From: a virus
IMG/VR virus record: IMGVR_UViG_3300034082_004296
Coordinates: 112,211 to 176,210 of that record
Length of the DNA: 64,000 nucleotides
Reading direction: 5' to 3' (one strand)
Position 1 is the first letter of the stretch; the number at the start of each line of letters is the position of its first letter. Both the position numbers and the translations under genes were made by a program. Of the stretch, positions 7,560 to 59,374 are shown one piece after another. Below the pieces are notes generated by a model, which was given only the letters and a program-made list of their open reading frames with translations, was not told the DNA's origin and did no database searches.

Positions 7560-7580
7560 AAAAAATGAACGTACATCAAT

Positions 7581-26000: not shown

Positions 26001-27089
26001 TTATGGAACAAAATACAGCCTATTTGAGTCAGTCGAGCAATAATATACTGATTTTGGCGGTAGACCGGCCGACCCGTCTTGTAAGTTCATGATCGAGAGT
26101 TGGTTTACAAATGTTGCACAAGACCTATTTGCAGTGATATTGCTTCCAACGATCATTGCTCGTGGACAGCCACCATCGCTATTTGAGTCTCCTCCAGCAA
26201 TTATTGAATATCCTCCACTTGCAGTGTTGTTAAAACCGCCTGAAATAGTTGAATATCCTCCACTTGCAGTGTTGTTAATACCGCCTGAAATAGTTGAATA
26301 TCCTCCACTTGCAGTGTTACTTGTTCCTCCACCGATCGTTGCTGAATAGTATCCGCTTGCCGTGTTATTTCTACCACCTGCGATGGTTGAATAGTTACCG
26401 CTTGCAGTATTGCTAGAACCGCCTCCTATTGTTTCGTTTCCATAATATGAGCTAGCTGTATTTGAAAATCCTCCGCCGATTGTTGAAAGGCCATAGTATG
26501 AACTAACTGTGTTTCCATATCCTCCGCCTATCGTTGAATAGTAAGAGCTCGCAGTATTAACAACGCCGCCGCCAACGCTAGAACCTATTCCGGATGCAGC
26601 ATTAGAATAACCACCGCTAACAGTCGTTGCGATATTTGCTGCAAAGTTATTATATCCTCCGCTAACAGTAGTATAATCAGAACTAGCAACGTTTAGTGCT
26701 CCGCCGGATACGACTGCGTAATATCCGCTTGCAGTGTTTGTAAATCCTCCACCGACCGTGTTTAAATCATTATTGCCTGCAGTGTTTCCATATCCTCCGC
26801 TAACAGTCGAGGCATATCCGCTTGCAGTATTGTCATATCCGCCGCTAACCGTTGAATAGGTTGAGCTTGCAACATTTGAATTATCTATTCTATACGTTGA
26901 TCCTGCGCCTGCACCTTCACTAACCGCTCCAGCTCCTTCAAGAAGCGTAATCGTACCTGCTGAGTCTATTTTTTTTAGTGCTCCTGCGTCGTCGAGATCA
27001 AAACCTATAAAGTAACTCCCTGCCTCTATTTGAGTGTAGTCAAGTGATGAAAACGAGACTTTAGGCATCTCCATTCCAGATCCGTACAT
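26001..27089 (-). CDS. Repeat-built adhesin/fibre, YadA-head-like (362 aa)
   Basis: After an N-terminal module (SYFIGFDLDDAGALKKIDSA), residues about 65-320 consist of about fifteen 14-17-residue repeats of the type GGxxNTASGYYSTIS, which match the left-handed beta-roll repeats of trimeric adhesin heads such as YadA. The C-terminus (LPPKSVYYCSTDSNRLYFVP) is a short non-repeat cap. The repeats contain no cysteines, unlike the two upstream paralogues. The N-terminal module is nearly shared with the next gene on the strand (27119-28300). Likely a short tail fibre or capsid-attached adhesin that binds host glycan. DNA-level tandem units are annotated separately. Confidence 0.6.
   Translation of the reverse strand: MYGSGMEMPKVSFSSLDYTQIEAGSYFIGFDLDDAGALKKIDSAGTITLLEGAGAVSEGAGAGSTYRIDNSNVASSTYSTVSGGYDNTASGYASTVSGGYGNTAGNNDLNTVGGGFTNTASGYYAVVSGGALNVASSDYTTVSGGYNNFAANIATTVSGGYSNAASGIGSSVGGGVVNTASSYYSTIGGGYGNTVSSYYGLSTIGGGFSNTASSYYGNETIGGGSSNTASGNYSTIAGGRNNTASGYYSATIGGGTSNTASGGYSTISGGINNTASGGYSTISGGFNNTASGGYSIIAGGDSNSDGGCPRAMIVGSNITANRSCATFVNQLSIMNLQDGSAGLPPKSVYYCSTDSNRLYFVP
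26204..26338. repeat. 45-bp tandem repeats inside adhesin gene
   Basis: Units begin at 26204, 26249 and 26294 (period 45 bp = 15 residues). Units 1 and 2 differ at one base; unit 3 matches for about the first 25 bases. This high identity means recent duplication and possible slip or recombination-driven length change. Confidence 0.7.
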
Positions 27090-27104
27090 GTTAGTCCTTT
27101 TATT

Positions 27105-27113
27105 TTATTTATC
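27105..27113 (-). promoter_or_regulatory. GATAAATAA late-promoter-like, reverse strand
   Basis: Reverse complement reads GATAAATAA, ending 15 nt before the start codon at 27089 in the transcription direction. Same motif as on the forward strand. Confidence 0.5.
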
Positions 27114-27118
27114 TTGAT

Positions 27119-28300
27119 TTATAATCGAACTCCTTCTATCGCAAAGGTTGTTTGATTATAATAGAAATATGTGTTTCCAGTGACTCCACCGGTGCCTATT
27201 GTGATTGCTGCAGTTGCTGCGGCTCTATCTACATAACTTGGTAAATTTAAGTTACTAAGTATAGTTGATCCAGATATAGCATTACATGATCCAGCACACG
27301 TTCCTAAAGCAATCACATCGCTACCTGTATTGCAATAAGCAGATCGATATCCTGATGCAGTCACAGTATCTCCGGAATTTCCATATGCGGAACGATAACC
27401 CGATGCAGTTACATAGTTTCCAATATTATTACTTGCTGAAAGAAATCCAACTGCCGTGATAAGACTTCCAGTATTGCAATATGCTGAATTGCTTCCAACT
27501 GCCGTTACTTGATTGCCACTATTGAAGTATGATGAAAAGCTTCCTATTGCAGTAAGAACATCTCCAGTATTACAGTAACCAGAGTGAGTTCCAACAGTTA
27601 CAACATTATTTCCTGTATTACAGTATGCTGAGTATGTTCCAACTGCTGCAATGTTGGATCCAGTGTTATGATATGCTGAGTATGTTCCAGACGCAGTCGT
27701 ATAATTTCCAGTATTACAGTATGCTGATCCTCTTCCTAGTGCAGATACACCGCTTCCAGTATTACACTGTGCAGAAAAGTAACCTGAAGCCGTCACATTA
27801 TTCCCTGTGTTGCAATATGCTGAAAATGCACCAGTAGAAGTTACCTGACTTCCAGTATTTTGATAAGCTGCACTTTCTCCAAAAGCGGTTAACTTATTTC
27901 CAGTATTAAAGAATGCTGATTGATAGCCTGATGAGGTAACTCCCATCCCAGTGTTACAAAAAGATGAAGTTGCACCAATTGCGACCACTCCGTTTCCAGT
28001 ATTGCATCGAGCTGCGTCTGTACCCAATGCAATTATGCTAGATCCAGTGTTTCCATCACCTGCACACGTACCTTGAAAGTTATTTCCATTTACAAGGTCA
28101 TGGTTGAAATCTAAAACTTGTTGTAGTGTCGGAATTCCACCGCCTCCTTCAACAGTTGTGATATTTCCAAGATGATCCATCTTAGAAAGGACACCAGAGT
28201 TATCTAGATCAAAACCTACAAAGTAGCTCCCGACAGGTATGTTTGAATAGGTGAGTGTTGCAAACGAGACTTTAGGTAATTCTATTCCAGACTTATACAT
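27119..28300 (-). CDS. Repeat-built adhesin with cysteine-rich 16-residue repeats (393 aa)
   Basis: The N-terminus (IELPKVSFATLTYSNIPVG and SYFVGFDLDNSGVLSKM) is closely similar to the 26001-27089 protein. Residues about 75-365 consist of 16-residue repeats of the type SAYCNTGxxVTAxGxx, about 18 units, most with Cys at the same position. This fits a regular beta-roll or beta-helix in which the Cys residues would stack in a ladder. The C-terminus is a short cap. It lies between two other adhesins on the strand (stop-to-start distances of 29 and 14 bases). Likely a virion fibre or spike; ligand unknown. Confidence 0.6.
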   Translation of the reverse strand: MYKSGIELPKVSFATLTYSNIPVGSYFVGFDLDNSGVLSKMDHLGNITTVEGGGGIPTLQQVLDFNHDLVNGNNFQGTCAGDGNTGSSIIALGTDAARCNTGNGVVAIGATSSFCNTGMGVTSSGYQSAFFNTGNKLTAFGESAAYQNTGSQVTSTGAFSAYCNTGNNVTASGYFSAQCNTGSGVSALGRGSAYCNTGNYTTASGTYSAYHNTGSNIAAVGTYSAYCNTGNNVVTVGTHSGYCNTGDVLTAIGSFSSYFNSGNQVTAVGSNSAYCNTGSLITAVGFLSASNNIGNYVTASGYRSAYGNSGDTVTASGYRSAYCNTGSDVIALGTCAGSCNAISGSTILSNLNLPSYVDRAAATAAITIGTGGVTGNTYFYYNQTTFAIEGVRL

Positions 28301-28314
28301 AATTTTCTTATTTT

Positions 28315-30189
28315 TTAATATATCTTATTTAAAACAAATATTTCAGTAAAAATAAAATTCGCTGCGTTTGTTGAGTTAAATTGTGCAGTGACATCCAGCT
28401 GATTAGGAATCGTTGTATCAAAAGTAGTTTGATTTAAAGTACTAAAATTATCACCTTCAAAGCTGCTACCTGCATTTTGAGTAAATGTAAAATAGCCCGA
28501 AGATAATAAACTAGCTGTTCCTGCAGTACCTAGCGATCTAACAGTAAAGGTTACATCAAAGGAAAAGTGTGAAGATGTAACATTTGGCATATTGATTGGA
28601 CCGACTACCCCAAATTCAGCTGAACCTGACTTAACTCTCAATGTTAAGGTATCGCCATTGTTAGCACCTAAATCTCCAGATATTCTTACAGCAAATGAAT
28701 CGCCTACGCTAAACCCATTTGAAGGTACAGATAATGAACCTATTCCGCTACCGATTAGACTCAATTCTGAGAGCGTGCCTGATATTGTTGTGCTATTGCT
28801 AGTTTGTGCAAATAGACCATAAACAGTTGGTCCAGGAATAGTCTTGTACTTAACTATCCCACTGACTGCGTCCCTTACTAGATAATTAGTAGCAGCCTGA
28901 TCCTGAGTAGGGGTGTTGACTATTGCTAAGTTATTTACGTGAAAGGTGTTTGCCTGTATAGCATTTATGTTACAGCCAAATATTCCAGAAAAACTGCAGC
29001 TTGCCGTGTTTCCGCAACCTCCAAGTATAGCCGAATAGCAACCTGAAGCGACATTGCATTTGCCTACTAAGACAGCTGAATAGTGTGCACTCGCAGTATT
29101 GCGACATCCTCCAAGTATTGATGAGTTACAACCTGATGAAGTATTGCAATATCCTCCACTAACGGTAGATGACCAGGCAGTCGCTCGGTTTTGTGAACCT
29201 CCACTAACTGTTGCATAAGTATTCGAAGATGTGTTAGCAAAACCTCCACCAACTGTTGATGTTGCGCCAGATGCAGCATTATTATATCCTCCGCTAATAG
29301 CTGAGTCATAACCAGAAGCCGTGTTAGATCGTCCGCCTCCAATTGTTGAACATCTTGCACTTGCAGTATTATTACAGCCACCAGCAATTGTCGAAGCTAA
29401 TCCACTTGCAGTATTACCGCGCCCTCCTCCAAGTGAAGACCATGCACCAGTAGCACAAGCTGTGTTACACTCTCCACCACTGACTATTGATCCAGCTGAA
29501 TATACTGCATTCAATCGACCTCCTCCAATTGTTGAATAAGATGAGCTTGCTGTATTGCAATATCCTCCGCTGATTACTGAACCGTTTCCACAAGTTTGAT
29601 TTGCTTTATTGCAACATCCGCCACCAACGGTCGAACCAGTTCCACCTGCAATATTACTACATCCTCCGCCAATTGTAGAATAGCTAAATGACGCAGTATT
29701 ACACATTCCCCCACTGACAATTGAACTCTGCCCACTTGCAGTATTGCCGCGTCCTCCTGAGACGGTTGTAAAAACGTTACTTGCACAGTTTATCGCTCCT
29801 CCGCCTATTGTTGAATTTCCGCTAGTTGTGACGTTATTACATCCTCCACTAATAGTCGCTGCGTATCCACTTGCGGTGTTACATATTCCTCCGCTAAGCG
29901 TTGAATAATTACTGCTAGCAATATTACATTTACCGCCAGAAACAGTTGAGCCTGCACCGCTTGCTGTGTTACATGTATCTATTCTATAGGTTGAACATAG
30001 TCCTGCACCAACATCTATTACTCCACCACTGCTTCCAACTACGCTCTCTATTCCAGTGTCATCCAGACAATACCAACAACCATCTGATTTAGCGTAAATC
30101 TTACTGTATCCCAGTTCTGGTGGCACAGGAGTCGATGCGACTTTTTTATGTTGAGGGATGCTATGATTTTTCTTTCCTTGGTATGGCAT
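28315..30189 (-). CDS. Repeat-built adhesin with cysteine ladder and beta-sandwich tip (624 aa)
   Basis: Residues 1-60 are a basic N-terminus (KKNHSIPQHKKVAS) then a Cys/Trp segment (YAKSDGCWYCLDDTGIES). Residues about 70-410 are about 22 YadA-head-like repeats of 15 residues (GGxCNTASGxxSTIS), with Cys in most at one position. Residues about 450-624 are a beta-sandwich-like domain (GDSFAVRISGDLG, FSFDVTFTVRSLG, ending in FIFTEIFVLNKIY), probably the receptor-binding tip. The three paralogues probably form a set of spikes with different tips. The promoter region on this strand was not obvious for this gene; it starts 6 bases downstream of the 297-aa gene's stop. Confidence 0.6.
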   Translation of the reverse strand: MPYQGKKNHSIPQHKKVASTPVPPELGYSKIYAKSDGCWYCLDDTGIESVVGSSGGVIDVGAGLCSTYRIDTCNTASGAGSTVSGGKCNIASSNYSTLSGGICNTASGYAATISGGCNNVTTSGNSTIGGGAINCASNVFTTVSGGRGNTASGQSSIVSGGMCNTASFSYSTIGGGCSNIAGGTGSTVGGGCCNKANQTCGNGSVISGGYCNTASSSYSTIGGGRLNAVYSAGSIVSGGECNTACATGAWSSLGGGRGNTASGLASTIAGGCNNTASARCSTIGGGRSNTASGYDSAISGGYNNAASGATSTVGGGFANTSSNTYATVSGGSQNRATAWSSTVSGGYCNTSSGCNSSILGGCRNTASAHYSAVLVGKCNVASGCYSAILGGCGNTASCSFSGIFGCNINAIQANTFHVNNLAIVNTPTQDQAATNYLVRDAVSGIVKYKTIPGPTVYGLFAQTSNSTTISGTLSELSLIGSGIGSLSVPSNGFSVGDSFAVRISGDLGANNGDTLTLRVKSGSAEFGVVGPINMPNVTSSHFSFDVTFTVRSLGTAGTASLLSSGYFTFTQNAGSSFEGDNFSTLNQTTFDTTIPNQLDVTAQFNSTNAANFIFTEIFVLNKIY

Positions 30190-40413: not shown

Positions 40414-40821
40414 ATGACTAATTATGCGACTGAAATAATTGAAATTAATGCTGGTGTAAACTACGAGCCTACTTTTATTAGAACAGATAAAAGACTACCT
40501 AGTAATGTACCAACTTCATTAGGCTATTATCAAATTGGTGAGTTTGGTCCTTATGGAAATGCAAAGGGTCCAATCTTTAGAGTTGAATTTGCAGATACTT
40601 CTTCTATTGCTACTGCTTCACATGTTAAGATCTGGGGCTTAGATAACGATGATACGAACGCTCCTCTATATCCAATTGCATACCTTCAAACATGGAGACC
40701 AATCCTAGACATATATGTAAAGAAATTTATCTTTTGTGACTCTGCTGGAGTAGAAGTCGATGAGGAAGGTAATTATACAGTTATTGGATATAAACGAAAA
40801 ACAATTCCTACTGTATTCTAA
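40414..40821 (+). CDS. Hypothetical protein, virion-like (135 aa)
   Basis: A beta-rich protein (FGPYGNAKGPIFRVEFADTS, HVKIWGLDNDDTNA) with no catalytic motif. It follows the 178-aa gene after 14 bases and shares a base with the next start (stop TAA / ATG overlap). Possibly a head-tail or decoration component; not recognised. Confidence 0.45.
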   Translation: MTNYATEIIEINAGVNYEPTFIRTDKRLPSNVPTSLGYYQIGEFGPYGNAKGPIFRVEFADTSSIATASHVKIWGLDNDDTNAPLYPIAYLQTWRPILDIYVKKFIFCDSAGVEVDEEGNYTVIGYKRKTIPTVF

Positions 40822-41288
40822 TGGAAAGAATAGACGAGTTTTATAATGGGGCAGGAATGCCTTCAAAGGACTTTGCAAGAGGCCTGCCTTTCTATGGAAC
40901 CAAGGGTGACTTTAACTTTACAACAGGCAAGAGCCAATTTACACCAGGAGTATCAATCAAGCAGTCTCCATTAACCGACATGTCAGTCAAAGGGGATCCA
41001 GGAGTATCCCCATTCGATTCACAAATAAGTAAACTAAGATTTTATTTCAAACCTGGAGATAGGGTCAGAGGTATTGTAATTAACTCTCAAATTAATTCAG
41101 AAAATGGTAAAGTTATAGTAGGGAAATTAGATAAGATCGTTCCTAACTATTCTACCAATACTATCCGAGCATGGATAAAAAATCCATCCACTCTTGAGTC
41201 TACTGAGATTTATATTGACACCATTGAAAGAATCTATGAGAGCACATCCGCTCGAGCTCTAAGTTTTTCTCAATTCATTAATTCATAA
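40821..41288 (+). CDS. Hypothetical protein with tag-like C-terminus (155 aa)
   Basis: Basic/Gly-rich N-terminal half (GLPFYGTKGDFNFTTGK), then a beta-barrel-like region: LRFYFKPGDRVRGIVINSQ, GKVIVGKLDKIV, NTIRAWIKNP. The C-terminus ends in RALSFSQFINS, which closely resembles the core of the capsid-targeting-like N-terminal tag (SFSQFIGES in the 19930 gene) but at the wrong end. The start overlaps the previous stop. Function unknown; a virion or assembly role is inferred from context. Confidence 0.5.
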   Translation: MERIDEFYNGAGMPSKDFARGLPFYGTKGDFNFTTGKSQFTPGVSIKQSPLTDMSVKGDPGVSPFDSQISKLRFYFKPGDRVRGIVINSQINSENGKVIVGKLDKIVPNYSTNTIRAWIKNPSTLESTEIYIDTIERIYESTSARALSFSQFINS

Positions 41289-44574: not shown

Positions 44575-45355
44575 AGACACGATATATCGAATCCTTGGTA
44601 CTATCATGTCAGGCGTGATCGTTGTTCTTCTCATGAAGAACTGCGAGCTTCAAAAGGGATACGATCGTGAGATTGATCAGCTTAAAAAATCGATTATTGC
44701 CTCTGACAAGCTTACAAAGGAAGCAGACGGTCGATACGCAAAATTAGTAGATTACTATGCTAGTGAAAAAGATCTATTAAACGATCTAAAAAAGAATAAT
44801 CGAGAGCTTTATCAAGAGATCAAAAAACAGGACGAGAAGTTGTTAAGCATAACTAGTTCAATAATATCCCTAGATGAAAAAGTCGTTCAGGGATTTGGTC
44901 AGACTGATCCTGTCGATACTAATCGATTGAATCTTTCCCTAAGATATCCTGATGAAAAGGATCCCTTTGTTTTTTGGGACGGATGGATAAACAAAAATAC
45001 CGCTGCATATCGAGGAACGTTTTCCTTTGGTAAACTTCCAATAAAAGTGGTTCTTACTGAAGAGTCTAGAGGCTTATGGAAGAGTCGAATCATTGGACCC
45101 GAATGGTTGAAAGTAGATTCATTATCAATATTAAGCATTCCACCAGAAGAATATGTTGTTGCAAAACCTAAAAAAGTACAATGGCTAGTTGGCGGCTCCT
45201 ATATGTATACTATGAATACTAACCTCCAAGGAGTGGGAGTAGATATTGGCCTAAGTCTTTTTGATCGACATAACCTAATGCTAGGAGCAACTACATTAAA
45301 CCAAGTAAGCGTTAGATATGTATATAAGATTAAGACACTTAAAAGAAAAAAGTAA
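44567..45355 (+). CDS. Membrane-anchored coiled-coil protein, possible spanin (262 aa)
   Basis: The N-terminus YRILGTIMSGVIVVLLMKNC is one hydrophobic segment (signal anchor). Residues about 30-110 are a charged coiled coil (YDREIDQLKKSIIASDKLTK, LLNDLKKNNRELYQEIKKQD). The C-terminal half is beta-type; the last 50 residues alternate polar and hydrophobic (VGGSYMYTMNTNLQGVGVDI, LMLGATTLNQVSVRYVYKI) like outer-membrane strands. An inner-membrane anchor, periplasm-spanning coil and outer-membrane-type end fit a spanin bridging both membranes. Also consistent with a tail or host-envelope protein. No assigned family. Confidence 0.45.
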   Translation: MNKDTIYRILGTIMSGVIVVLLMKNCELQKGYDREIDQLKKSIIASDKLTKEADGRYAKLVDYYASEKDLLNDLKKNNRELYQEIKKQDEKLLSITSSIISLDEKVVQGFGQTDPVDTNRLNLSLRYPDEKDPFVFWDGWINKNTAAYRGTFSFGKLPIKVVLTEESRGLWKSRIIGPEWLKVDSLSILSIPPEEYVVAKPKKVQWLVGGSYMYTMNTNLQGVGVDIGLSLFDRHNLMLGATTLNQVSVRYVYKIKTLKRKK

Positions 45356-45357
45356 GA

Positions 45358-47346
45358 ATGGCACAAAGTAGATTCATAAACATATCGTCTTACTGTATTG
45401 CAGAATACCAGTTTGAACAAATAGGCTCTCTTAATTTCTACAATGAGGATTTTATCTTTGTTGAAAATGCGATTACAGGAGGTCATCAAATATTTAATAC
45501 TGACGCTTCATATAATACTTTGAAGAATATTAGAGACTTGTCAGTCGTTCCTATCGAAAACAACACTTATGTGTATCTAGATAGCGAAAAGGTTCCAAAT
45601 TACCTTAATTATAATCCTCAGTTTACATCATCGACTCTATCCGGATATAATGTGGTAATGGATAGAGTGAGGTTTCACTTTGTATCAGGTTTTGACTTCG
45701 ATAACTTTAAAGCTCTAATCTTATCTGTAAGTAATCCTGAGAATAACGGAACAATCAATATTTTTGCAAACATACTTGTTGCGCCTGAAACTATTTCTGA
45801 ACTCATAATATTCAATCCCAAACCTCTTTTTCTCTCAAACGCAGTATACGATAGATACATCGACGTTTACATACCTTCTATAAAGAACATAAATGAGGAT
45901 TTTGTGACTGCACCAGTACCAGCCTTGACTTTTGCTGCGGCAATTACGCCAAGCCCAAGTGGACCTTCTGGTCTAGTCTATAACAATCCCATAACTTTAT
46001 CTCTACTTGAGTGCGGAACCAAAAAACCAATCTTTACTAATACTTCAATGATCTATGATTCATATGAAGTTTCGGAAGTATACACGGCAACTGTTTCGCA
46101 GACTAATGAGTTTAATAACGTTGGAGCCTATGTGAATCAAGCTGTGCTTGGAGATTATCTAGAATTTTATCTTACTTTTAATTCAGCCTTTCCTGGAGAG
46201 TTAATATCTATATTAAACCGAAGAAATCCAGTTGACGATTGGATCATAGTTCACCAGTTAAGTGTATTTGAACAAGTAGGAACTGCTTTTATCAATACTG
46301 CAAGGCTAGTGTTTTTCCAAGAAGACTCATATGATGAACCAAATGTTTTTAGACCTGTCCTTAAATATGCTCATGAAGCAATCAGCATGTCAGTCGACTA
46401 TATCGCGCGATTGACTAATCGAAGAAATGGCGAACAGATAATTAGGGAAGCTTCATTTAACCTAGTTTCTCCGAAAAAATATGGAAGAAGCCTGATAAAC
46501 TTACCTCTACTTGATAAACCACAATCCCAAAAAATATACAATAAGATCGTTAAGAATAACTTTGAAGCGACTTCACTTTTTATTGAGCCGACTCCCATTA
46601 GTAAGCAAAGTGTCATTACTCCATCAGTACCAACGCAAGTTACTGAAGTTGTTCGTACAGAATTTGTGCCAATCTTTTTTAATAACAATAACATTTCAAT
46701 ATCTAACGTTAATTCAATGATTAAGTCAACTGATTCTTCTGAGGAAGTTGTGTTTGGTCCTGGAAAGTTACGATTTATCTTGTCGCCGTTTGATAATATT
46801 CTTAAATTAAAAGTATTTACTGAGGCTGCTTTGGCAAATGCTGAAAATCCACTAGTTCCTTTAGATCTAAACGTGAATGCCGCAAAATACCGACTAGTTT
46901 TTGAGACATCGTCAGGTAAAGTATCAATCGATAACGTAAACGACTCTAGTCAGGAAAACCTATCGACTGGCCAAATAACATTCAATATAGCTAAAAAAGA
47001 GAGCGAGTCTGTGACCAACTCAAAAAATAAGACAGTGTATATAGTGTCGGTTTCCCAAGACGGCCGTGAGACATTAATGTATACTGGAGAGTGGAGAAAG
47101 CCTAGCGAACAGTCAGATGTTGATGCTGCAATTGCTCAAGCAAAAGCAGATGCCGCTGCTAAAAAGGACCTAACTAAGATACTTGGTGGAATCAAGGACA
47201 GACTATCATTGATTACTAAATTGGATCTTGCAAATAAAGTTGATGCTAGTTCTACAGTGAAGAGCAAAGGAGAAGCTCCTATCGTGAACAGGTTCGGTGT
47301 AGCCGGATCAAAATCGATACGGACAAACGGTTCTAACTCTAAGTAA
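45358..47346 (+). CDS. Putative virion structural protein (662 aa)
   Basis: A beta-rich protein with acidic and Asn-rich loops (IGSLNFYNEDFIFVENAITG), a central part with FYLTFNSAFPGELISI and a C-terminus with an Ala-rich helix (VDAAIAQAKADAAAKKDLTK) followed by a basic tail. The tail end (VNRFGVAGSKSIRTNGSNSK) is disordered. The start is 2 bases after the previous stop. Composition and neighbours suggest a baseplate or tail component; family not recognised. Confidence 0.5.
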   Translation: MAQSRFINISSYCIAEYQFEQIGSLNFYNEDFIFVENAITGGHQIFNTDASYNTLKNIRDLSVVPIENNTYVYLDSEKVPNYLNYNPQFTSSTLSGYNVVMDRVRFHFVSGFDFDNFKALILSVSNPENNGTINIFANILVAPETISELIIFNPKPLFLSNAVYDRYIDVYIPSIKNINEDFVTAPVPALTFAAAITPSPSGPSGLVYNNPITLSLLECGTKKPIFTNTSMIYDSYEVSEVYTATVSQTNEFNNVGAYVNQAVLGDYLEFYLTFNSAFPGELISILNRRNPVDDWIIVHQLSVFEQVGTAFINTARLVFFQEDSYDEPNVFRPVLKYAHEAISMSVDYIARLTNRRNGEQIIREASFNLVSPKKYGRSLINLPLLDKPQSQKIYNKIVKNNFEATSLFIEPTPISKQSVITPSVPTQVTEVVRTEFVPIFFNNNNISISNVNSMIKSTDSSEEVVFGPGKLRFILSPFDNILKLKVFTEAALANAENPLVPLDLNVNAAKYRLVFETSSGKVSIDNVNDSSQENLSTGQITFNIAKKESESVTNSKNKTVYIVSVSQDGRETLMYTGEWRKPSEQSDVDAAIAQAKADAAAKKDLTKILGGIKDRLSLITKLDLANKVDASSTVKSKGEAPIVNRFGVAGSKSIRTNGSNSK

Positions 47347-51730: not shown

Positions 51731-53029
51731 ATGAAACTTTTATTTTTAATCGTATTCCTACTTGGAATTTCAAGCATTGTTAACTCGCAATGTAACCAAT
51801 ATCAAATCTACGAAAGTTTTACAGGTACCTTACCGACACAAGGTGGAACTTGGACTGCTAATTCAATGATAGCAGTAACCTCTCCAGTACGTACTGGAAC
51901 CCATGCAATTGGATTTAATGGTTCAGGCGATTGGATCAGAACTCCACAAATGGCTAGTCCAGGAATATTAAATTTTTGGTACAGAAGAAGCTCTAATTCT
52001 ACTGCATGGACGCTAAATGTTCAGACTTCACCAAATGGAACCACTTGGACTACTAGAGGTTCAATTACCACAGTCACTACTACGTATCAACAGTATACCC
52101 TAAATATTGGAGCCCTTAGTCTAACTAATATTTTTATTAGGTTAATTGATGCTAGGTCCTCTGGTGCACATGAAAGATATGTTGAAGACTTATCAATAAC
52201 TTCAACAGCTGCATCGTCTAACATTTTACTTCCTATCCTAGGATCATGTACTCAGACTCTCAACTCAAGTCTAACATATAACTTAGCTGATGACGGTGGC
52301 CCAGCCGGGCCTATATCGACTGGGTATAGTAACAATGTTGATCGTACCCTAACTCTCACTCCATCCGACAATACACTAAAACTACAGTTATCATTTACCC
52401 AAATGGATCTAGAGACCAGTTATGATTATCTATATGTTTATGATGGACCAACTACTTCTGCTACTCTTTTGGCAACACTAAACGGAACAGTCATACCTTC
52501 TGACATAACTGCGACGAATTCGACAGGTCAACTCACGATCCGATGGACTAGCGATGTCTCTAACATAGGAGCTTGGGGAGGATTTATGGCTAGTGTAAAG
52601 TCAATATCTGTTGTGCCGTTACCTGTTGAATTACTCTATTTTGAAGGTGATGTATATCCCTCTTTTAATAGCTTGAAATGGGCGACAGCATCAGAGCAAA
52701 ACTCTTCACATTTTATCATTGAGCGTTCAACTGACGGATATTATTGGAGAGAGATAGTAAAAAAGCCAGCCGCTGAAAATTCTAATCAGCTCATAAATTA
52801 CTATTACTTGGATAATATCGAAGATTTTGTTTTGCATTATTATCGATTAATTCAATGTGATATTGATGGAACGAATATGATATATGGACCGATCGCTATA
52901 GATAACCGTGAAAAATCAAAAAAGGTGGTCAAGTGGATTAATATGTTTGGTCAAGAGGTTAGCGAATACGAAAACGGAGTGATCTTTATAGTATATGAAG
53001 ACGGATCAACTAAAAAAGTGATCCGATAA
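51731..53029 (+). CDS. Secreted CUB-domain protein with type IX-secretion-like C-terminus (432 aa)
   Basis: Residues 1-19 (KLLFLIVFLLGISSIVNSQ) form a clear signal peptide. Residues about 25-155 form a jelly-roll-like domain (YESFTG, LNFWYRRSSNSTAWTLNVQ). Residues about 175-290 are a CUB domain (YDYLYVYDGPTTSATLLATL, LTIRWTSDVSNIGAWGGF). Residues about 293-340 match the linker typical of Bacteroidota exoproteins (VPLPVELLYFEG, FIIERSTDGYYW). The end (VVKWINMFGQEVSEYENG and VYEDGSTKKVIR) matches the type IX secretion sorting domain. Probably acquired from a host. Exported through the host system; acts on the outside or is a virion adhesin. Confidence 0.75.
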   Translation: MKLLFLIVFLLGISSIVNSQCNQYQIYESFTGTLPTQGGTWTANSMIAVTSPVRTGTHAIGFNGSGDWIRTPQMASPGILNFWYRRSSNSTAWTLNVQTSPNGTTWTTRGSITTVTTTYQQYTLNIGALSLTNIFIRLIDARSSGAHERYVEDLSITSTAASSNILLPILGSCTQTLNSSLTYNLADDGGPAGPISTGYSNNVDRTLTLTPSDNTLKLQLSFTQMDLETSYDYLYVYDGPTTSATLLATLNGTVIPSDITATNSTGQLTIRWTSDVSNIGAWGGFMASVKSISVVPLPVELLYFEGDVYPSFNSLKWATASEQNSSHFIIERSTDGYYWREIVKKPAAENSNQLINYYYLDNIEDFVLHYYRLIQCDIDGTNMIYGPIAIDNREKSKKVVKWINMFGQEVSEYENGVIFIVYEDGSTKKVIR

Positions 53030-53054: not shown

Positions 53055-54887
53055 ATGTCAAATATAACTCTAACTGAGAGTCAAGCTCAACAGTTCAGAA
53101 TGTTTAATTCAGTAATTGAATCAGCTGAACCTAGACTTTCAAGCATTCTTACTTTTGATAACCTAGTAAACGAAGCACATGCTTTGAGAGTAATTGAATC
53201 AAATATTCCAGAAAGCTTAAAATTTGATCTTCACCTTGATATGATTTTAAGAGACGGCAGCCGAAACGTTGCTGATTACTATAAATCAATGTCAAACGGA
53301 ACTAATTACATATTGGAAGCTGCTAGAAAAGTATTTCCAAATGACTCAAAGATAACTGAATCTATCGAAAGTTTCAAGGAATATATGGTCTCCATGTTAA
53401 ATGAAGACGCATTATCATTAGGCAATCCTATTATGTCTGCTGGTGGAATTGATACTGCTCTAGCCGGTGGACCTCTTCAACCAAGAGCAGGTAGCGGTTT
53501 TTGGTCAGTTCTCAAAGGCTTATGGAATGCAGTTACTGAAGGCGGATCTCTTATAGGAGTCGTCCATTTTATCATTGATATTGTTGGACTCTTTGGTGAT
53601 TTTATTTTTCCTGGAGTCGGAGTATGTGCTGACCTTATTAATGCTGCAATATATGCTATTCGTGGAGAGTGGATGCTATGTGCAATCTCAGTAATTGCAG
53701 CTGTTGTGATAGGTTTTGGTGACGCTCTTAAATTAGTTAAATTTGCAGCCAAACCTGCTGAAAAAGTAATGGTCGCTTGCGCTAAGGGTCAAACTAAAGA
53801 GGCTGCTGAGATGATGGCAAAAATGAGTGCTAAGGAGAGTGGAGGAGTCATAAAAATTCTTACACAAATCTTTGGAAATATTGGAGGTGCTCTAGGAAAA
53901 GCAACCTCACTTATTGGAAAACTGACACAAGGTATTGGTAAAGTAGTAGATTATATTCCAGGACTAGGTGCGCTTTTGAGACCAATATTCGATGGGATAG
54001 GAAAAGTCCTTACTAAGTTTGGGGAAAAAATGTCACTAGGTAGTGCCACCTTTAAACTAGCAACAACTTCAGCAAAAGAGGCTGCTGCCGTTACTATTCA
54101 TCAAGCTTTAAAAGGAGGCGGTGACATTATATTTGATGGTTCATGGGTAAAGGTAGTCAATAAGGAAGGCAAGCAAGTAGGAAAGTACCCATTCAAACAG
54201 TTTGAGAAGATAAGCGCTGATGAATTCATGGAAGCTGCAGTAAAAAAGGCTGGCGATCGAGCAAGTGCTCGAATCTTATATAAGAATGGTAAAGATTATG
54301 CTAAGGTCACCAAGACTCTTGAAAAAGACGCAGTTCAAGATTCTATGAGAAAAAGAGCATTTGAATATTTCGGTACTACTGCTTTTTGGAAGGGATCAAA
54401 GAGAATGTATAAAGACTTTATGTTTTTTGTCGGTAAGCAGATCTATAAGATAATATTTAAGACTGATTGGGTTGACGGTGCAAATAATAAATGGTCAGAA
54501 AGAGAAGTCGGGGGCCATGGCAACGGTGCATTCAACCATTGGATTGACAATCGGATAAAGGATGAGATGGATGAGAAAGGAGCAGTATACTTGCCTGCAT
54601 TGGACTTAGACTCAGAAGATCAAGAGGTTGTCGACAAGGTCACTGAATACCAAAACCATTATGCTAAACTTTACGGTCAACCTACAATCATGAATGTTGT
54701 TACCAAGACATATGATAAGGAAGGGGCCACCAAAGAATATGCAGCCTTTTTTGATGATATCGCATCTGGAAAAGTTAAGAGGGGCGGGACTGGTGATAAA
54801 GTTGACCACTCAATATCTGATACTCTTACTGAGGGTCGTGCGCCAATTGTAAAAAAGATAATGAATTTTTCAGATTTTAACCGATGA
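53055..54887 (+). CDS. Pre-toxin-like membrane-active protein, possible ejection protein (610 aa)
   Basis: The N-terminus has L-T-E at 6-8 and VIES at 21-24, possible prohead-protease sites. Residues about 160-240 are strongly hydrophobic and Gly-rich, with FGDFIFPGVGVCADLINAAI and IRGEWMLCAISVIAAVVIGF, closely resembling the pre-toxin domain of polymorphic toxins ('F-I-P-G-V-G-x-x-A-D-x-I-N-A-x-I-y'). A Gly/Ile-rich region (LIGKLTQGIGKVVDYIPGLG) follows. The C-terminus is basic then charged and ends MNFSDFNR. It may form a membrane pore for DNA entry or carry a toxin. Coupled to the next gene (ATGA). Confidence 0.55.
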   Translation: MSNITLTESQAQQFRMFNSVIESAEPRLSSILTFDNLVNEAHALRVIESNIPESLKFDLHLDMILRDGSRNVADYYKSMSNGTNYILEAARKVFPNDSKITESIESFKEYMVSMLNEDALSLGNPIMSAGGIDTALAGGPLQPRAGSGFWSVLKGLWNAVTEGGSLIGVVHFIIDIVGLFGDFIFPGVGVCADLINAAIYAIRGEWMLCAISVIAAVVIGFGDALKLVKFAAKPAEKVMVACAKGQTKEAAEMMAKMSAKESGGVIKILTQIFGNIGGALGKATSLIGKLTQGIGKVVDYIPGLGALLRPIFDGIGKVLTKFGEKMSLGSATFKLATTSAKEAAAVTIHQALKGGGDIIFDGSWVKVVNKEGKQVGKYPFKQFEKISADEFMEAAVKKAGDRASARILYKNGKDYAKVTKTLEKDAVQDSMRKRAFEYFGTTAFWKGSKRMYKDFMFFVGKQIYKIIFKTDWVDGANNKWSEREVGGHGNGAFNHWIDNRIKDEMDEKGAVYLPALDLDSEDQEVVDKVTEYQNHYAKLYGQPTIMNVVTKTYDKEGATKEYAAFFDDIASGKVKRGGTGDKVDHSISDTLTEGRAPIVKKIMNFSDFNR

Positions 54888-55732
54888 AATTAAAAAACTT
54901 TAAGAGTTACTCTGAATACTATTCAAAGGATCCAAATAACTTTGAAAAAAAGATAGCCCTAGCATCATCTGGTAGCCAGCACCCTCTATTTGAAAACTTT
55001 TCCACGTTTGATGACGCAATAACTGCTACAAAGTCCGTGCCCGTAATAATTTGGGGAAACTTTAGGTTTTCAAGCATGAACGAAAATTTTTGTAGTGTTG
55101 TCTATAATCAGGGAAATATTCCTTCAAAAAAGGAGATATCGACTGTCTTCAAGGAAGAGGATTTTGTACCAAAGGTAGTAAAGGATAGGTCTTTAATAAA
55201 AAAGATGAGCTTTCCGATCACTGGAGTTTTTGGAGAAGAGGAAGAAGACTTTAAAACATATGGACAGTTTAAAAAGTCCGAGAGATTTTTTGATCACTTT
55301 AAGGAGAAACTTGTACCTACGTCTAAATTTGAGGTGCTAGCAGTCGACGGTAAACCCGTACATGCACATAAGAAGATAATTAATAACTCATTCGATATTG
55401 ATCTTACTCGATGGAAACATTTAGGGGAGGCAGAATCAATCTGTAAAAAGATCCATTCTAAGTATTCTCCCGATTTTTATGTGGTCTCTCTGCTTGAAGC
55501 AAATGGCCAACTTTACCTAGATTCGATAACTAGAAACATTGACCTCACCCCAGTACAGAGTGTAAGGTTATACGAGGCAGCCTATCGAAAATATTATGAG
55601 ACTGATTTGCCTTACTGGTTTAGAAAAAAGGTTTTTGAGGATCACGTAAAGCCATATTATATCAAGAAGTACTATGATTCTCTGCTAATTAAGCCGACTG
55701 GTACAATCGACTATGAAAAATACTTAAACTAA
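54884..55732 (+). CDS. ATP-grasp-like protein with tag-like N-terminus (282 aa)
   Basis: The N-terminus MKLKNFKSYSEYYSKD has the aromatic spacing of the tag (F-x-x-Y-x-x-Y) but no clear L-x-E. The body follows the ATP-grasp order: VPVIIWGNFRFSS, VPKVVKDRSLIKKMSFPITG, then FEVLAVDGKPVHAHKKI (the usual 'R-v-l-v-i-g-g-k-v-v-a-a-x-k-R'). SICKKIHSKYSPDFYVVSLL and ANGQLYLDSITRNIDLTPV follow in place of 'l-g-l-d-f-x-g-V-D' and 'y-v-l-E-x-N'. Metal-binding Glu and Asn may be changed (LDSITRN). Family assignment is by eye. Stop and next start overlap (TAATG). Confidence 0.4.
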   Translation: MKLKNFKSYSEYYSKDPNNFEKKIALASSGSQHPLFENFSTFDDAITATKSVPVIIWGNFRFSSMNENFCSVVYNQGNIPSKKEISTVFKEEDFVPKVVKDRSLIKKMSFPITGVFGEEEEDFKTYGQFKKSERFFDHFKEKLVPTSKFEVLAVDGKPVHAHKKIINNSFDIDLTRWKHLGEAESICKKIHSKYSPDFYVVSLLEANGQLYLDSITRNIDLTPVQSVRLYEAAYRKYYETDLPYWFRKKVFEDHVKPYYIKKYYDSLLIKPTGTIDYEKYLN

Positions 55733-55920
55733 TGCTGATCATTAATTGTAAGGGTAAAAAGATAGAGTGGGTTCTTAAGAAATACAGACAACGAGTAGAC
55801 TCTACTGGACAGTTGGATGAGCTTAGACAGAGAAAGGAGTTTGAAAAACCAAGTGTCAAAAAGAGAAAAATAAAGCAGAGAGCGCAATATAAATCTAAAA
55901 ATAACGATGCTAAGATTTAA
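55732..55920 (+). CDS. rpsU: Ribosomal protein bS21
   Basis: 62 residues, full family length. IEWVLKKYRQRVDSTGQLDE fits the bS21 N-terminal helix, and LRQRKEFEKPSVKKRKIKQR matches the diagnostic 'L-R-x-R-x-x-x-E-K-P-S-x-x-R-K' segment. bS21 joins the small subunit next to the anti-Shine-Dalgarno end of 16S rRNA. In Bacteroidota bS21 is involved in hiding that sequence, so a phage copy could retune start-site choice. Phage-encoded bS21 is known from cultivated and metagenomic phages. The start overlaps the previous stop (TAATG); the next gene begins inside it (14-base overlap). Confidence 0.9.
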   Translation: MLIINCKGKKIEWVLKKYRQRVDSTGQLDELRQRKEFEKPSVKKRKIKQRAQYKSKNNDAKI

Positions 55921-56401
55921 AGACTTTTTAAACGAGCGATGGGGCAAAGACATGTTACCTAAAGATAGAAGAGCGGCTGGCGTAGCAATCGTTTGGGAAA
56001 ACCGAATACTTTTGGTCCATCCAACAAATTCTTCCTGGAAAAAAGCAACATGTGGAATACCCAAGGGAAAGCTTGAACCTGGTGAGGATCCAGTGTCTGG
56101 TGCTCTTCGTGAGCTTGAGGAAGAGACAGGAATAGTATTGGACGAGAGCCAGCTTGACCCGGAATCGAATAGCGTTGATTTCTATAATGCAAAGGGAGAG
56201 CCTGATGGGTCCTTAATCTATTTTGTATGTACAATATCTGATCTTGCTGAAATAGGTCTGGATTCAGATCGTGTGCCTAAGGGCCAACTCCAGCTAGAAG
56301 AGGTGGATTGGGGAAAGTTTGTTAGTGCTGAAGAAGCATATCCAATATGTACTAGAAACCAGCTAATCATCCTAGATCGGCACATTACTTTGAATAAATA
56401 A
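55907..56401 (+). CDS. NUDIX hydrolase with capsid-targeting-like N-terminus (164 aa)
   Basis: Residues 54-76 are a perfect Nudix box (GKLEPGEDPVSGAL then RELEEETGI: G-x5-E-x7-R-E-U-x-E-E-x-G-U). The body strand VAIVWENRILLVHPTNSSW precedes it. The enzyme class hydrolyses nucleoside diphosphates linked to another group (NTPs, ADP-ribose, capped RNA, dinucleotide polyphosphates); substrate not evident. The N-terminus MLRFKDFLNERWGK has the tag layout, with L-N-E at 8-10. This would make it a packaged enzyme delivered with the DNA. Overlaps bS21 by 14 bases. Confidence 0.85.
   Translation: MLRFKDFLNERWGKDMLPKDRRAAGVAIVWENRILLVHPTNSSWKKATCGIPKGKLEPGEDPVSGALRELEEETGIVLDESQLDPESNSVDFYNAKGEPDGSLIYFVCTISDLAEIGLDSDRVPKGQLQLEEVDWGKFVSAEEAYPICTRNQLIILDRHITLNK
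56393..56401 (+). promoter_or_regulatory. AATAAATAA late-promoter-like
   Basis: AATAAATAA at the end of the NUDIX gene, 20 nt before the GTG at 56422. Confidence 0.45.
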
Positions 56402-56421
56402 CTAAAACATCCGATATTTTC

Positions 56422-57765
56422 GTGAGACCTTTAAACTTTAATACCTGGAATTCTTTAAATGAGACTGTTGCATTCGATCCCAGTGCAAACTATCCAGACA
56501 AGACATTTGGTTATGCTTCCGGTTCAGTCGATGCAGCTAAAGTAGTTGCCGGCGGCGCTGGAGGAAATTGGGGCGGGTCCATGTCAAGAGCACTATGGTT
56601 TGCTCGAGTAGCCGATGATTGGGCCAAGGCCAATGGAAAAACCGGATCACTAATTACTTCTCAAAAAAGATCTAGACAAAAGACTGATTCAGGCAATACA
56701 TCAGACCATTATGAGGGCAATTCGGATGCATATGCAGTCGATATCGCAGCTGCTGGTGCTGAAGGAGACGAGATACTTGCGTATATTATGCAAAAGTTTG
56801 GATACCCAGAATATAAAGGAGGTTCATGGTTTAACATAACAATCAATGGTTATCGATACCAGGTAGGCTGGAGAGTCAAAAACCATTTTGATCACATCCA
56901 TGTAGGGGTAAAAAGAGTAGTTGGCGGAAAGGATACCCCGACTGGAAAAAAGGGAACATTTGGTGAAAAGATGGCGAGTAACTCAGAAGTAGTTGCATGG
57001 TTTGCTAAGCATGCTTCGAATGTCACACTGAGTGGCGCTTTCATTGATAACCTAATAAAGGATGATCCTGAAAAGCCTAAGAAACTAGAATGGTTTAAGA
57101 AAAAATTCAATGTCACTGATTTAGGTGATCCAGTTAAACCTAAATCATCTAATGATATTGTAATAACTGCACCTGATTGGTGGATATCAATGACTAAAAA
57201 AGTAATAGATAATTTTGAAGGCGGTTATTGGAATCATTGGGAGTGTAAAAATCATCCATATTCAGCAATGTATGCAAATTCTGGAGAGACCTTATTTGGC
57301 TTAGACCGGAAGGCTGGCCAAATAGAGAAGATTTGCCCTGCCGGTAAAAAATTCTTTGCAATTATTGATGGAGAAAAAGCAACACTAAAGGATAAGTTTT
57401 GTGAAGTATGGAAATATAACTATCGTGGCGGAAAGTTAGAGGACGAATTAAAGCTTCTTGCTGCAGAAACGATGTGGTTCTCATACAATGCAAATATGGA
57501 AGCTTTTTCAAAACATCCGGAAACTAAGAATAGGATTGAAAAAAATAAGGGCTTGGTTTTACACATGTCATATGCTTGCTGGAATGGTCCAGGATTCTTC
57601 CAAAAGTTTGTCAAAGCTCTTGAAAAAGGGGTAAAAGAGGGAAAATCAGACAAACAACTCATTGAGATTGCTAAGACTACTAGAGCAGCCGCTCTGTCAG
57701 GTTACTGGGCAAAAGGATCAGCTACTGTAAATAAGTTAATTGATAAAGAGGCAGGGCTCGCATAA
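56422..57765 (+). CDS. Two-domain peptidoglycan hydrolase with tag-like N-terminus (447 aa)
   Basis: Starts with GTG. The N-terminus RPLNFNTWNSLNETVAF has L-N-E at 12-14, as in the shared tag. Residues about 90-170 resemble M15/LAS zinc peptidases (D-Ala-D-Ala carboxypeptidase type): SDHYEGNSDAYAVDIA, then HFDHIHVGVK with the second His pair. Residues about 245-440 contain an EGGYWNHWECKNHPYSAMYA segment and SGETLFGLDRK, like the Glu of GH108/lysozyme-type muramidases ('E-G-G-Y'). Together they would cut both peptide and glycan. It could be the endolysin, but the tag points to a virion enzyme that eases DNA entry. Confidence 0.65.
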   Translation: MRPLNFNTWNSLNETVAFDPSANYPDKTFGYASGSVDAAKVVAGGAGGNWGGSMSRALWFARVADDWAKANGKTGSLITSQKRSRQKTDSGNTSDHYEGNSDAYAVDIAAAGAEGDEILAYIMQKFGYPEYKGGSWFNITINGYRYQVGWRVKNHFDHIHVGVKRVVGGKDTPTGKKGTFGEKMASNSEVVAWFAKHASNVTLSGAFIDNLIKDDPEKPKKLEWFKKKFNVTDLGDPVKPKSSNDIVITAPDWWISMTKKVIDNFEGGYWNHWECKNHPYSAMYANSGETLFGLDRKAGQIEKICPAGKKFFAIIDGEKATLKDKFCEVWKYNYRGGKLEDELKLLAAETMWFSYNANMEAFSKHPETKNRIEKNKGLVLHMSYACWNGPGFFQKFVKALEKGVKEGKSDKQLIEIAKTTRAAALSGYWAKGSATVNKLIDKEAGLA

Positions 57766-57826
57766 TTTCAAACTATTTTAAAACTTTATCCAAGACATTG
57801 AGTTTAATATTCTAAAATTAAACATT

Positions 57827-58315
57827 ATGTCTGAAGAAAAAACAACAACCGAAGAACAAGAAGTATTGATTGAAGAGACTCAAGATGCCATGCCAGAAGG
57901 AGTACATTTCTTAGAGGAACCTCAAGCAGAACTTAGTGAATTAGATGCTGCCATTCAAGCTAGAATGGGACATTTTCCAATTGAGATCTCGCCAGCAGAT
58001 CTAAAATACATTAAGAACCTACTAAACAATAAGATCGAGTGGAAAGGGCCAAACGAAGCATACTTGATGCTAATGTCACTTCTTTCTATCTCTAGCGAGC
58101 TTAAAGAAAGAGATTCTCAATCAAACGAAAGAGTGTCAATACACCTTCCTTCTACTACTCTTGAGTCAATCAACTTTTTCTTAAATCGAGTTACTGGTAA
58201 GGGTGAAGAATCTGCACATAGATTATTTGCAGTATCTATGTTGCTTCGTCCTGCAATGGAGCAAATTAAAAAACTTGACGAAGTTATTGAAAAATTACAA
58301 TCTGAGGAAAAATAA
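57827..58315 (+). CDS. Hypothetical acidic protein (162 aa)
   Basis: The first 55 residues are acidic and mostly disordered (MSEEKTTTEEQEVLIEETQD). The rest is helical (YIKNLLNNKIEWKGPNEAYL, LMSLLSISSELKERD), followed by another helix, FFLNRVTGKGEESAHRLF. Highly acidic proteins in this place recall T4 prohead core components, but there is no recognisable match. Leader is A/T-rich (TAAAATTAAACATT) before the ATG. Confidence 0.45.
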   Translation: MSEEKTTTEEQEVLIEETQDAMPEGVHFLEEPQAELSELDAAIQARMGHFPIEISPADLKYIKNLLNNKIEWKGPNEAYLMLMSLLSISSELKERDSQSNERVSIHLPSTTLESINFFLNRVTGKGEESAHRLFAVSMLLRPAMEQIKKLDEVIEKLQSEEK

Positions 58316-58326
58316 ATCATTACTTA

Positions 58327-58337
58327 GATAAATAATA
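58327..58337 (+). promoter_or_regulatory. GATAAATAATA late-promoter-like
   Basis: GATAAATAATA, 16 nt before the ATG at 58354. Confidence 0.55.
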
Positions 58338-58353
58338 AAAAAGTTTATTAAAG

Positions 58354-58719
58354 ATGAAAGTAAAAAACTTTGCAGGGTTTATGAAAACTCGCAGAATGAA
58401 CGAAAGCGACGGCATGGAAGGTGCTGAAGACACTGGATACGGAACTAATCCTGAAGAAGAAATGAACATGGGATATTATGGGTATGGCGCCAATCCTGAA
58501 GAAGAGGAAGAGCCTGCTGAAGGTGAAGAGGGAGAAGGTGAAGAAGGAGCAGAAGAGGAATTAACTCTTGAAGACCTTAAAGCCATGATCGATGACCTAA
58601 CTGAGAGAGTTAAGAAACTTGAACCAGAAGAGGAAGGTGAAGAGGGAGAAGAAGGTGAGGAAGGTGAGGAGCCTGCTGAAGGAGAAGCTAAACCTGCAGA
58701 AAAGGAAGCCAACATTTAA
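58354..58719 (+). CDS. Acidic prohead-core-like protein (121 aa)
   Basis: The N-terminus MKVKNFAGFMKTRRMNES resembles the shared tag (M-N-E at 15-17, then Ser). After Gly/Tyr-rich residues (GYGTNPEEEMNMGYYGYGAN) the protein is one of the most acidic here: long Glu/Gly runs flanking the helix LEDLKAMIDDLTERVKKLEP, which also appears in the 59045 gene. The pattern (tag, acidic, short coiled coil) resembles T4 prohead core proteins such as gp67, which are cut by the gp21 protease. A strong terminator follows its stop. Confidence 0.6.
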   Translation: MKVKNFAGFMKTRRMNESDGMEGAEDTGYGTNPEEEMNMGYYGYGANPEEEEEPAEGEEGEGEEGAEEELTLEDLKAMIDDLTERVKKLEPEEEGEEGEEGEEGEEPAEGEAKPAEKEANI

Positions 58720-58740
58720 TTAAAAGCGTATCATACACTT

Positions 58741-58768
58741 AAAGCGAATGGAAACATTCGCTTTTTTT
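58741..58768 (+). terminator. Intrinsic terminator with GAAA loop
   Basis: Perfect 10-bp stem AAAGCGAATG / CATTCGCTTT with loop GAAA, followed by T-run. It lies 22 bases after the stop at 58719. Confidence 0.9.
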
Positions 58769-58773
58769 GTCAA

Positions 58774-58782
58774 GATAAATAA
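58774..58782 (+). promoter_or_regulatory. GATAAATAA late-promoter-like
   Basis: GATAAATAA, 18 nt before the ATG at 58801, directly after the terminator. Confidence 0.55.
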
Positions 58783-58800
58783 CAAAAAATAAAATATATT

Positions 58801-59064
58801 ATGTCTGCAAAAAAATTTAATAATTTTATGAAAATCGGCCGTTTAATTGAATCTCAAGATGGAATGGAAATAGGATATTTTCCAAAACCAGAAGACTGGT
58901 CTAAGGAAATGAGCAGATCTGCCAGTATTTATGGAGCAATGGATGAACCTGAAGAGTTAACCTTAAATAGTCTTAATTCAAAGATTAATGATTTAGAATC
59001 AGAAATAGCTAGGCTATCATCAAGACTTGAACAATTAGAATCTAATGGGAATAACGATTATTAA
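58801..59064 (+). CDS. Small tagged coiled-coil protein (87 aa)
   Basis: The N-terminus MSAKKFNNFMKIGRLIES fits the tag with L-I-E at 15-17 then Ser. The middle has a Gly/Tyr-rich segment (YGAMDEPEELT), then a coiled coil (LNSKINDLESEIARLSSRLE). Layout matches the 58354 and 59045 proteins: tag, acidic/Tyr linker, C-terminal coiled coil. Probable head core component. Overlaps the next gene by 20 bases. Confidence 0.55.
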   Translation: MSAKKFNNFMKIGRLIESQDGMEIGYFPKPEDWSKEMSRSASIYGAMDEPEELTLNSLNSKINDLESEIARLSSRLEQLESNGNNDY

Positions 59065-59374
59065 TTTTGATCAATTCGTAACTTCCATTAAAACTAACGA
59101 AAATTCAGACCTTGACTGGAGCGATAAGAATTGGGACGAAGCGGGCATGGATGCCGAAAATCCACCTAACTCTGGTCTGGAAGGAACTAGCGCAGAAACA
59201 ATGGATTATACTGCAGGTGACTATGGAGAAACCAGTGATGAAGTAGAAATTGAGGAAGATGAGACTGAGGTTGATCGTACAGCCAAATCTAAGGAGGAGA
59301 CCGATATGATAAAAGCCTTAATTGACGACCTTACTGATCGTGTATCAAACCTTGAAAAAATAAAACAAACGTAA
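59045..59374 (+). CDS. Small acidic tagged coiled-coil protein (109 aa)
   Basis: The N-terminus MGITIINFDQFVTSIKTNE resembles the tag (N-F-x-x-F), but the site is I-x-x-x-E rather than L-x-E. An acidic Gly/Tyr-rich middle (YTAGDYGETSDEVEIEEDE) leads to a C-terminal helix IKALIDDLTDRVSNLEKI, which closely matches the helix of the 58354 protein (IDDLTERVKKLE). A likely paralogue in a head-core set. It begins inside the preceding gene. Confidence 0.55.
   Translation: MGITIINFDQFVTSIKTNENSDLDWSDKNWDEAGMDAENPPNSGLEGTSAETMDYTAGDYGETSDEVEIEEDETEVDRTAKSKEETDMIKALIDDLTDRVSNLEKIKQT

Follow-up and report, generated by a model that had tools for sequence, protein, structure and literature searches.

A tagged, probable two-domain peptidoglycan hydrolase as candidate head cargo of a T4-type phage

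The gene at 56422-57765 on the plus strand of the window raises the question of why a predicted cell-wall hydrolase should begin with a short sequence that resembles a phage head-targeting signal, and of where such an enzyme would act. The window is the whole 64,000-base stretch analysed here, which occupies positions 112211-176210 of G000, a virus record 176,210 bases long. ORF calling and comparison with relatives show an uninterrupted reading frame with a GTG start and a product of 447 residues. Just before the start codon, a conserved AACTAAAATAC...ATTTT is found in the window and in the relatives L004-L014, perhaps representing a promoter or an A-rich ribosome site.

The surrounding genome encodes a T4-type S77 prohead protease domain (G000 55503-55952; PF03420, 1.2e-12, above cut-off), the gp23 capsid protein (G000 57826-59079; PF07068, 3.8e-36, above cut-off) and a T4-type portal, together with a T4-type terminase encoded in the window, and on these grounds the virus is regarded as a T4-type tailed phage. 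Directly upstream of the hydrolase lies a tagged NUDIX hydrolase (55907-56401, plus strand; MLRFKDFLNER; Pfam NUDIX, 3e-14), and the same pair is adjacent in the relative G002. Elsewhere in the window, a secreted-looking protein (51731-53029) has a C-terminal part that resembles the secretion tails of Bacteroidota, which suggests that the host may belong to this phylum, and long genes with short repeats on the minus strand (26001-30189) may encode fibres or adhesins; two window proteins, presumed to be among the products of these genes, have matches to the UspA1 adhesin repeat.

Neither the whole hydrolase, in profile searches against Pfam, PHROGs and the PDB, nor its two halves, searched as families against sequence libraries, gave a usable match, and the GenBank phage collection holds neither a relative of the protein nor similar DNA. 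Relatives were obtained from IMG/VR, where the whole protein, the N-terminal half and the C-terminal half retrieved 26, 61 and 56 sequences, respectively.

The N-terminal half (56491-56925, plus strand; residues ~24-168) is predicted to be an M15/Hedgehog-like metallopeptidase domain from its invariant columns, VIA structural matches and the register of its motifs with an M15_3 endolysin. The M15-like motifs on which the original prediction was built are present as SDHYEGNSDAYAVDIA (residues 94-109) and HFDHIHVG (residues 155-162), and W50, G52, R83, S94-D95-H96, D107, R145, H155, H158 and H160 are among the positions invariant in 40 sequences. H96, D107 and H160 are proposed as zinc ligands, with H158 invariant as well, and the H-x10-D spacing is longer than usual. 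The AlphaFold model is confident over residues ~25-168, and its best VIA matches, all with low Z, are Sonic hedgehog (Z 5.1) and the C-terminal domain of VldE (Z 5.0; two zinc ions, 23% identity), tied with a designed protein; Sonic hedgehog and VldE are presumably both of the Hedgehog/DD-peptidase zinc fold. When profiles were compared with the M15_3 endolysin of the phage itself, the similarity was weak (E 0.083 for one pair), but SSQKRSR, SDH...VDI and HIHV fell on the corresponding M15 motifs. An M15 Pfam match at 0.1 was obtained for none of the 40 family members.

A small helical region modelled by AlphaFold (56944-57156, plus strand; residues ~175-245) links this domain to the C-terminal half (57172-57762, plus strand), which is predicted to be a lysozyme-superfamily-like glycosidase from its AlphaFold model, its VIA matches and its replacement by GH19 in relatives. 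The EGGY motif noted earlier lies at residues 266-269, and E266, E289 and T290 (E22, E45 and T46 in domain numbering) are invariant in 32 sequences. The model is very confident (pLDDT 95.6), with a GH24 muramidase, VgrG3, two phage endolysins, SagA and a chitosanase as its top VIA matches (Z 8.3-8.7). Lysozyme-like Z values of this size can arise by chance among helical folds, and comparative evidence therefore weighs more. The catalytic glutamate of lysozymes sits at the end of the first helix, and the invariant E266 lies just past the first helix of the model (model residues 8-21); the alignments with T4 lysozyme begin with model residue 12 opposite residue 1, so that E22 of the model would correspond to E11 if the alignment is ungapped. 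E266 is the proposed catalytic residue of the lysozyme-like domain.

The fold scores obtained for both halves are modest (Z 5 and 8.7). The structural comparison that had been suggested for the two halves yielded weak-to-moderate matches of the AlphaFold models to the expected folds, whereas the GH108 assignment of the second half found no counterpart at the level of sequence profiles, as neither the window protein nor any of the 32 C-terminal family members matches PF05838; 'lysozyme-like' is therefore the safe name. Cellular genomes searched with the EGGY profile yielded no relative, and there was no direct profile link to the weakly GH108-like protein of the same phage (G000 6955-8367).

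Domain partners in the relatives add a further line of evidence. L010-L014, L021 and L022 share the tag and the M15-like half and carry another second domain, which matches GH19 in all six aligned members with the swap (best E 6e-9), and the helical linker spans the junction at which this exchange takes place. In other relatives the M15-like half stands beside Amidase_2, glucosaminidase or VanY, beside an SLT domain in a 1440-aa protein, or beside an OB-fold baseplate-hub-like protein, and in L018 a PG_binding_1 domain is added to it. Annotated partners are nearly all wall-related, the exceptions being a DHH domain that accompanies the EGGY domain in L088 and a nucleotidyltransferase-like part in L023. 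From these partners and the folds, the gene product is very probably a peptidoglycan hydrolase. Among the unusual architectures, L023 / L120 (678 aa) resembles a polyprotein, combining a nucleotidyltransferase-like protein, an internal FFLNE site, an M15-like domain and VanY, and part of it is similar to the product of a separate tagged, nucleotidyltransferase-like gene at G000 19964-20719; in L088 (938 aa), whose match to DHH phosphoesterases is weak, the EGGY domain is C-terminal, and L057, L067 and L093 start alike.

The tag itself, MRPLNFNTWNSLNE (56422-56463, plus strand), is predicted to be cut by the prohead protease after E14, and the sequence directly following the cut, TVAFDPSANYPDK, would start at T15. 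Residues 1-15 have pLDDT below 50 in the AlphaFold model. The L-N-E emphasised in the original prediction occupies residues 12-14, E14 is invariant in the 13 closest N-terminal halves, and motifs of this kind are more frequent than chance at N-termini across the genome. With the strict motif set as [YFL]xx[YFW]x0-4[LIFV][NAYSFG]E and applied to 211 mechanically picked G000 ORFs, 22 N-termini match; the corresponding figure is 2.7 +/- 1.5 for internal windows, and shuffling of the N-termini gives 1.8 +/- 1.4, with 9 as the highest value in 1000. At least two of the strict matches are probably false, among them the DNA ligase, whose family match already starts at residue 8, and the protein at G000 10129. 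A looser pattern gave 43 matches against a background of ~19 and was discarded because of this high background.

Two forms of the tag can be distinguished. The long form, [YFL]xxWxx[LIVF]xE, to which the hydrolase belongs (FNTWNSLNE), occurs at seven G000 N-termini against 0.41 expected, and the short form at 15 against 1.41 expected; the hydrolase's neighbours carry the exact short T4 form, while the hydrolase itself has the longer W-form, a point against a T4-type head signal. Even so, the two forms look like one tag, since the paralogues G000 16122 and G000 17304 both begin with MSNILNFKNWL and then continue, one in the short form and the other in the long. Portability is illustrated by the proteins at G000 68205 and G000 70866, which are otherwise dissimilar and have only the tag YLLNYxxWRALYES in common (12/14 residues, E 7e-5). 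The relative G002 has the motif at 18 of its 159 N-termini, and its W-form on a protein that appears P-loop-like by sequence led us to drop the idea that this form marks wall-acting proteins only. Judged from these counts, the tag is a real, portable feature of the encoded proteins.

A scan of the window also located a tagged protein with no function assigned, MEARIKSFSQFIGES (19930-20502, plus strand). Possible C-terminal tags number 11 in G000 against 4.3 +/- 2.0 in shuffles, an enrichment that is only suggestive. Tag-like ends lacking the glutamate were seen at window 53055-54887 (IMNFSDFNR) and 40821-41288 (ALSFSQFINS) and at G000 44797-46755 (VSSFKDFLKGDD) and 8858-10075 (VLSFSEWSRFNLR), and three consecutive small acidic proteins at window 58354-59374 have looser tag-like starts (VKNFAGFMKTRRMNES, AKKFNNFMKIGRLIES, IINFDQFVTSIKTNE).

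In T4, a capsid targeting sequence (CTS) brings internal proteins into the prohead core and is then cut off by gp21 (PMC5694885, PMC9958956). As a control, T4 proteins taken from GenBank were scanned with the short motif, which matches the internal proteins IPII and IPIII at residue 4 (MKTYQEFIAE) and gp23 at residues 59-65 (FGSFLTE), at the maturation site that removes a 65-residue propeptide (PMC5694885). It is not found in e, nudE, gp5, gp21, gp22, gp24, gp67, gp68 or IPI, and is thus specific but incomplete.

A second connection to the head comes from the 658-aa protein that contains the S77 domain (G000 55509-57485; L032:17509-19485). Its residues 296-442 hold a 14-residue repeat, aromatic-x-x-aromatic-[LIV]-x-E, with 8-10 motif copies (8 strict), compared with 7 in 50,846 aa of other proteins outside N-termini. 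The tag therefore resembles one unit of what is presumed to be a core protein. In this protein the prohead protease is fused to the region of tag-like YxxY[LIV]xE repeats, which may act as a scaffold to which tagged cargo docks.

Other phages appear to use different tags for similar proteins. Their EGGY proteins mostly start with a helical tag of another type that also ends in [LI]xE (e.g., MSKKFIITEEERNEIKSLYKINE), and tags of this type are also seen on a handful of further proteins encoded in these genomes, against an internal background near zero. In the M15-like relatives L124, L126, L132, L143, L144 and L146, and likewise in L137 and L153, a targeting-like helix of the LNEEINRIKKLM type is found at the C-terminus. 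Some of these proteins begin with a bare M-x-LNE, which gives the impression of trimming at both ends. Of the contigs of at least 75 kb that carry such hydrolases, 14 of 19 encode an S77 protease, as against none of the five contigs bearing an M15-like protein without a recognised tag, a comparison that is unfair because these five are only 18-68 kb long.

The wall enzymes encoded elsewhere in the phage bear directly on the role of the hydrolase. By sequence, two more of the tagged proteins resemble wall hydrolases, one firmly (G000 11511-12128; tag MKHILNLQNWRKLNE; Phage_lysozyme2, 4e-22) and one weakly (G000 6955-8367; tag MSRLLKFNEWNRLNE; sub-threshold GH108 match only), and the tags of both persist in several relatives. 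An untagged 155-aa M15_3 protein (G000 91926-92393) matches the endolysin family phrog_894 at 1e-39. The gp5-like tail hub (52091-52771, 226 aa) matches the tail-lysozyme family only over its OB part (residues 16-97), and its C-terminal ~130 aa match only a baseplate family, and a divergent lysozyme may possibly reside there. Pfam scans of nearly all ORFs revealed no further peptidoglycan hydrolase among the matches listed (the best 25 families in two of the three ORF sets), except for one PG_binding_1 domain.

Altogether, the computational backing is good for the original proposal that the gene specifies a peptidoglycan hydrolase of two domains that carries a tag for the head. It comes from the domain partners and the weak-to-moderate matches of fold, from the tag counts, the scan of T4 proteins and the repeats of the protease, and from an endolysin that is encoded separately and untagged and a hub in which no lysozyme can be recognised. 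Packaging in the head is the best reading because the tag is real and T4-like, the endolysin lacks it and no lysozyme domain is seen in the hub, and the enzyme is probably packaged there. The first 14 residues of this combined M15/Hedgehog-type zinc peptidase and lysozyme-type glycosidase would act like a T4 capsid targeting sequence and allow co-assembly with the prohead core, whereupon the S77 protease would remove the tag after L-N-E. The mature enzyme, as one of ~20 tagged cargo proteins of which two others are also wall-hydrolase-like, would remain in the head with the DNA and exit through the tail at infection. Once in the periplasm, it would most likely cut the wall locally, letting the tube or DNA pass, since the gp5-like hub seems to lack a lysozyme. 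On balance, a head-tagged bifunctional hydrolase that is cleaved, ejected and active at entry appears to be the best explanation of the locus.

The main rival to head packaging is an ordinary late endolysin acting from within, with a tag that is incidental or was placed by a recombination accident. Two catalytic domains, and the PG-binding domain of one relative, would suit such an enzyme, and the tagged NUDIX gene directly upstream recalls T4, where according to GenBank the untagged cytoplasmic endolysin gene e adjoins nudE and the IP genes, an analogy that hints at an endolysin origin. However, T4 e and nudE are both without a tag, the phage already has its separate M15_3 endolysin gene, and the tag is kept across relatives despite the swap of the second domain and is elsewhere exchanged for other tags ending in [LI]xE, so that an endolysin seems unlikely. 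If the tag were instead a signal for incorporation into the tail or baseplate, the enzyme would be a tail lysin, as could be suggested by M15-like relatives in a baseplate-hub-like protein and in a long SLT protein that is probably a tape measure, and by the name tail lysozyme borne by PF18013, which is found on another tagged protein. Yet what the tag resembles are sites of the T4 head core and repeats in the phage's own head protease, not tail proteins, and the tail fusions are without a recognised tag and lie on S77-less contigs, short as these are; we consider a tail location decidedly unlikely.

Within head packaging itself, the original prediction had also raised the possibility that the head mainly keeps the enzyme out of the cytoplasm, for action at lysis or on neighbouring cells after the burst. 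Present evidence fits this as well as it fits a role at entry, but head contents go out at infection and an untagged endolysin is already encoded by the phage, which leaves such a function very unlikely. Entry is considered the most likely role of a packaged enzyme. Beyond the single gene, it can be put forward tentatively that a group of T4-type phages loads ~20 tagged proteins, including up to three wall hydrolases, by means of a tag copying the protease-scaffold repeat, that related phages place the tag at either end, and that cutting of the wall has been handed over to ejected head cargo by the tip of the contractile tail.

If true, the head-packaging model would extend to a contractile-tailed phage a head-delivered wall-hydrolase route so far known in podoviruses. 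It would also allow the head cargo of uncultured T4-type phages, whose tagged proteins mostly lack known function, to be predicted by a sequence rule, and would provide a set of natural targeting tags, N-terminal and perhaps C-terminal, to join the T4 and P1 ones that already carry foreign proteins. The parts are known separately, in the T4 targeting sequence and in T7 gp16; their combination in a contractile-tailed phage, and any wall hydrolase with a T4-type CTS, was not found described in the open-licence literature.

The premise that virion hydrolases usually sit on the tail is correct, but a review article on such lysins names head-internal examples from podoviruses, including T7 gp16 and phi29 gp3, and gives the baseplate as the site of T4 gp5 and phiKZ gp181 (PMC5380687). 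T7 gp16, SP6 gp36, phiKMV gp36 and phi29 gp3 are peptidoglycan hydrolases of the capsid that are ejected at infection (PMC5380687, PMC6116005). A capsid-internal wall hydrolase is likewise predicted here from sequence, although those phages are podoviruses and gp16 is a large core protein, whereas the present case concerns a small cargo enzyme of a T4-type phage. To our knowledge, T7 gp16 has no removable T4-type tag.

Compared with the T4 tail lysozyme gp5, the enzyme would meet the same need for local wall opening at entry, but gp5 is located in the baseplate, and the hub of this phage matches the tail-lysozyme family over the OB part only. Phage P1 offers a parallel in that its gp5 is without lysozyme and its DarB capsid cargo has an N-terminal signal (PMC9024508). 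A tail needle without lysozyme, combined with a head cargo signal, is thus known from P1 and predicted for the present phage; P1, however, presumably degrades the wall with an SLT domain of its tape measure rather than with head cargo. For the tag, a counterpart is offered by T4 IPII and IPIII, where a short N-terminal aromatic-x-x-aromatic...[LI]xE tag likewise stands before an unrelated mature protein, and both phages possess an S77 protease and gp23. The differences are that the hydrolase tag has two extra residues before L-N-E, that only a handful of T4 proteins are tagged as against ~20 here, and that the predicted cargo of the present phage includes wall hydrolases.
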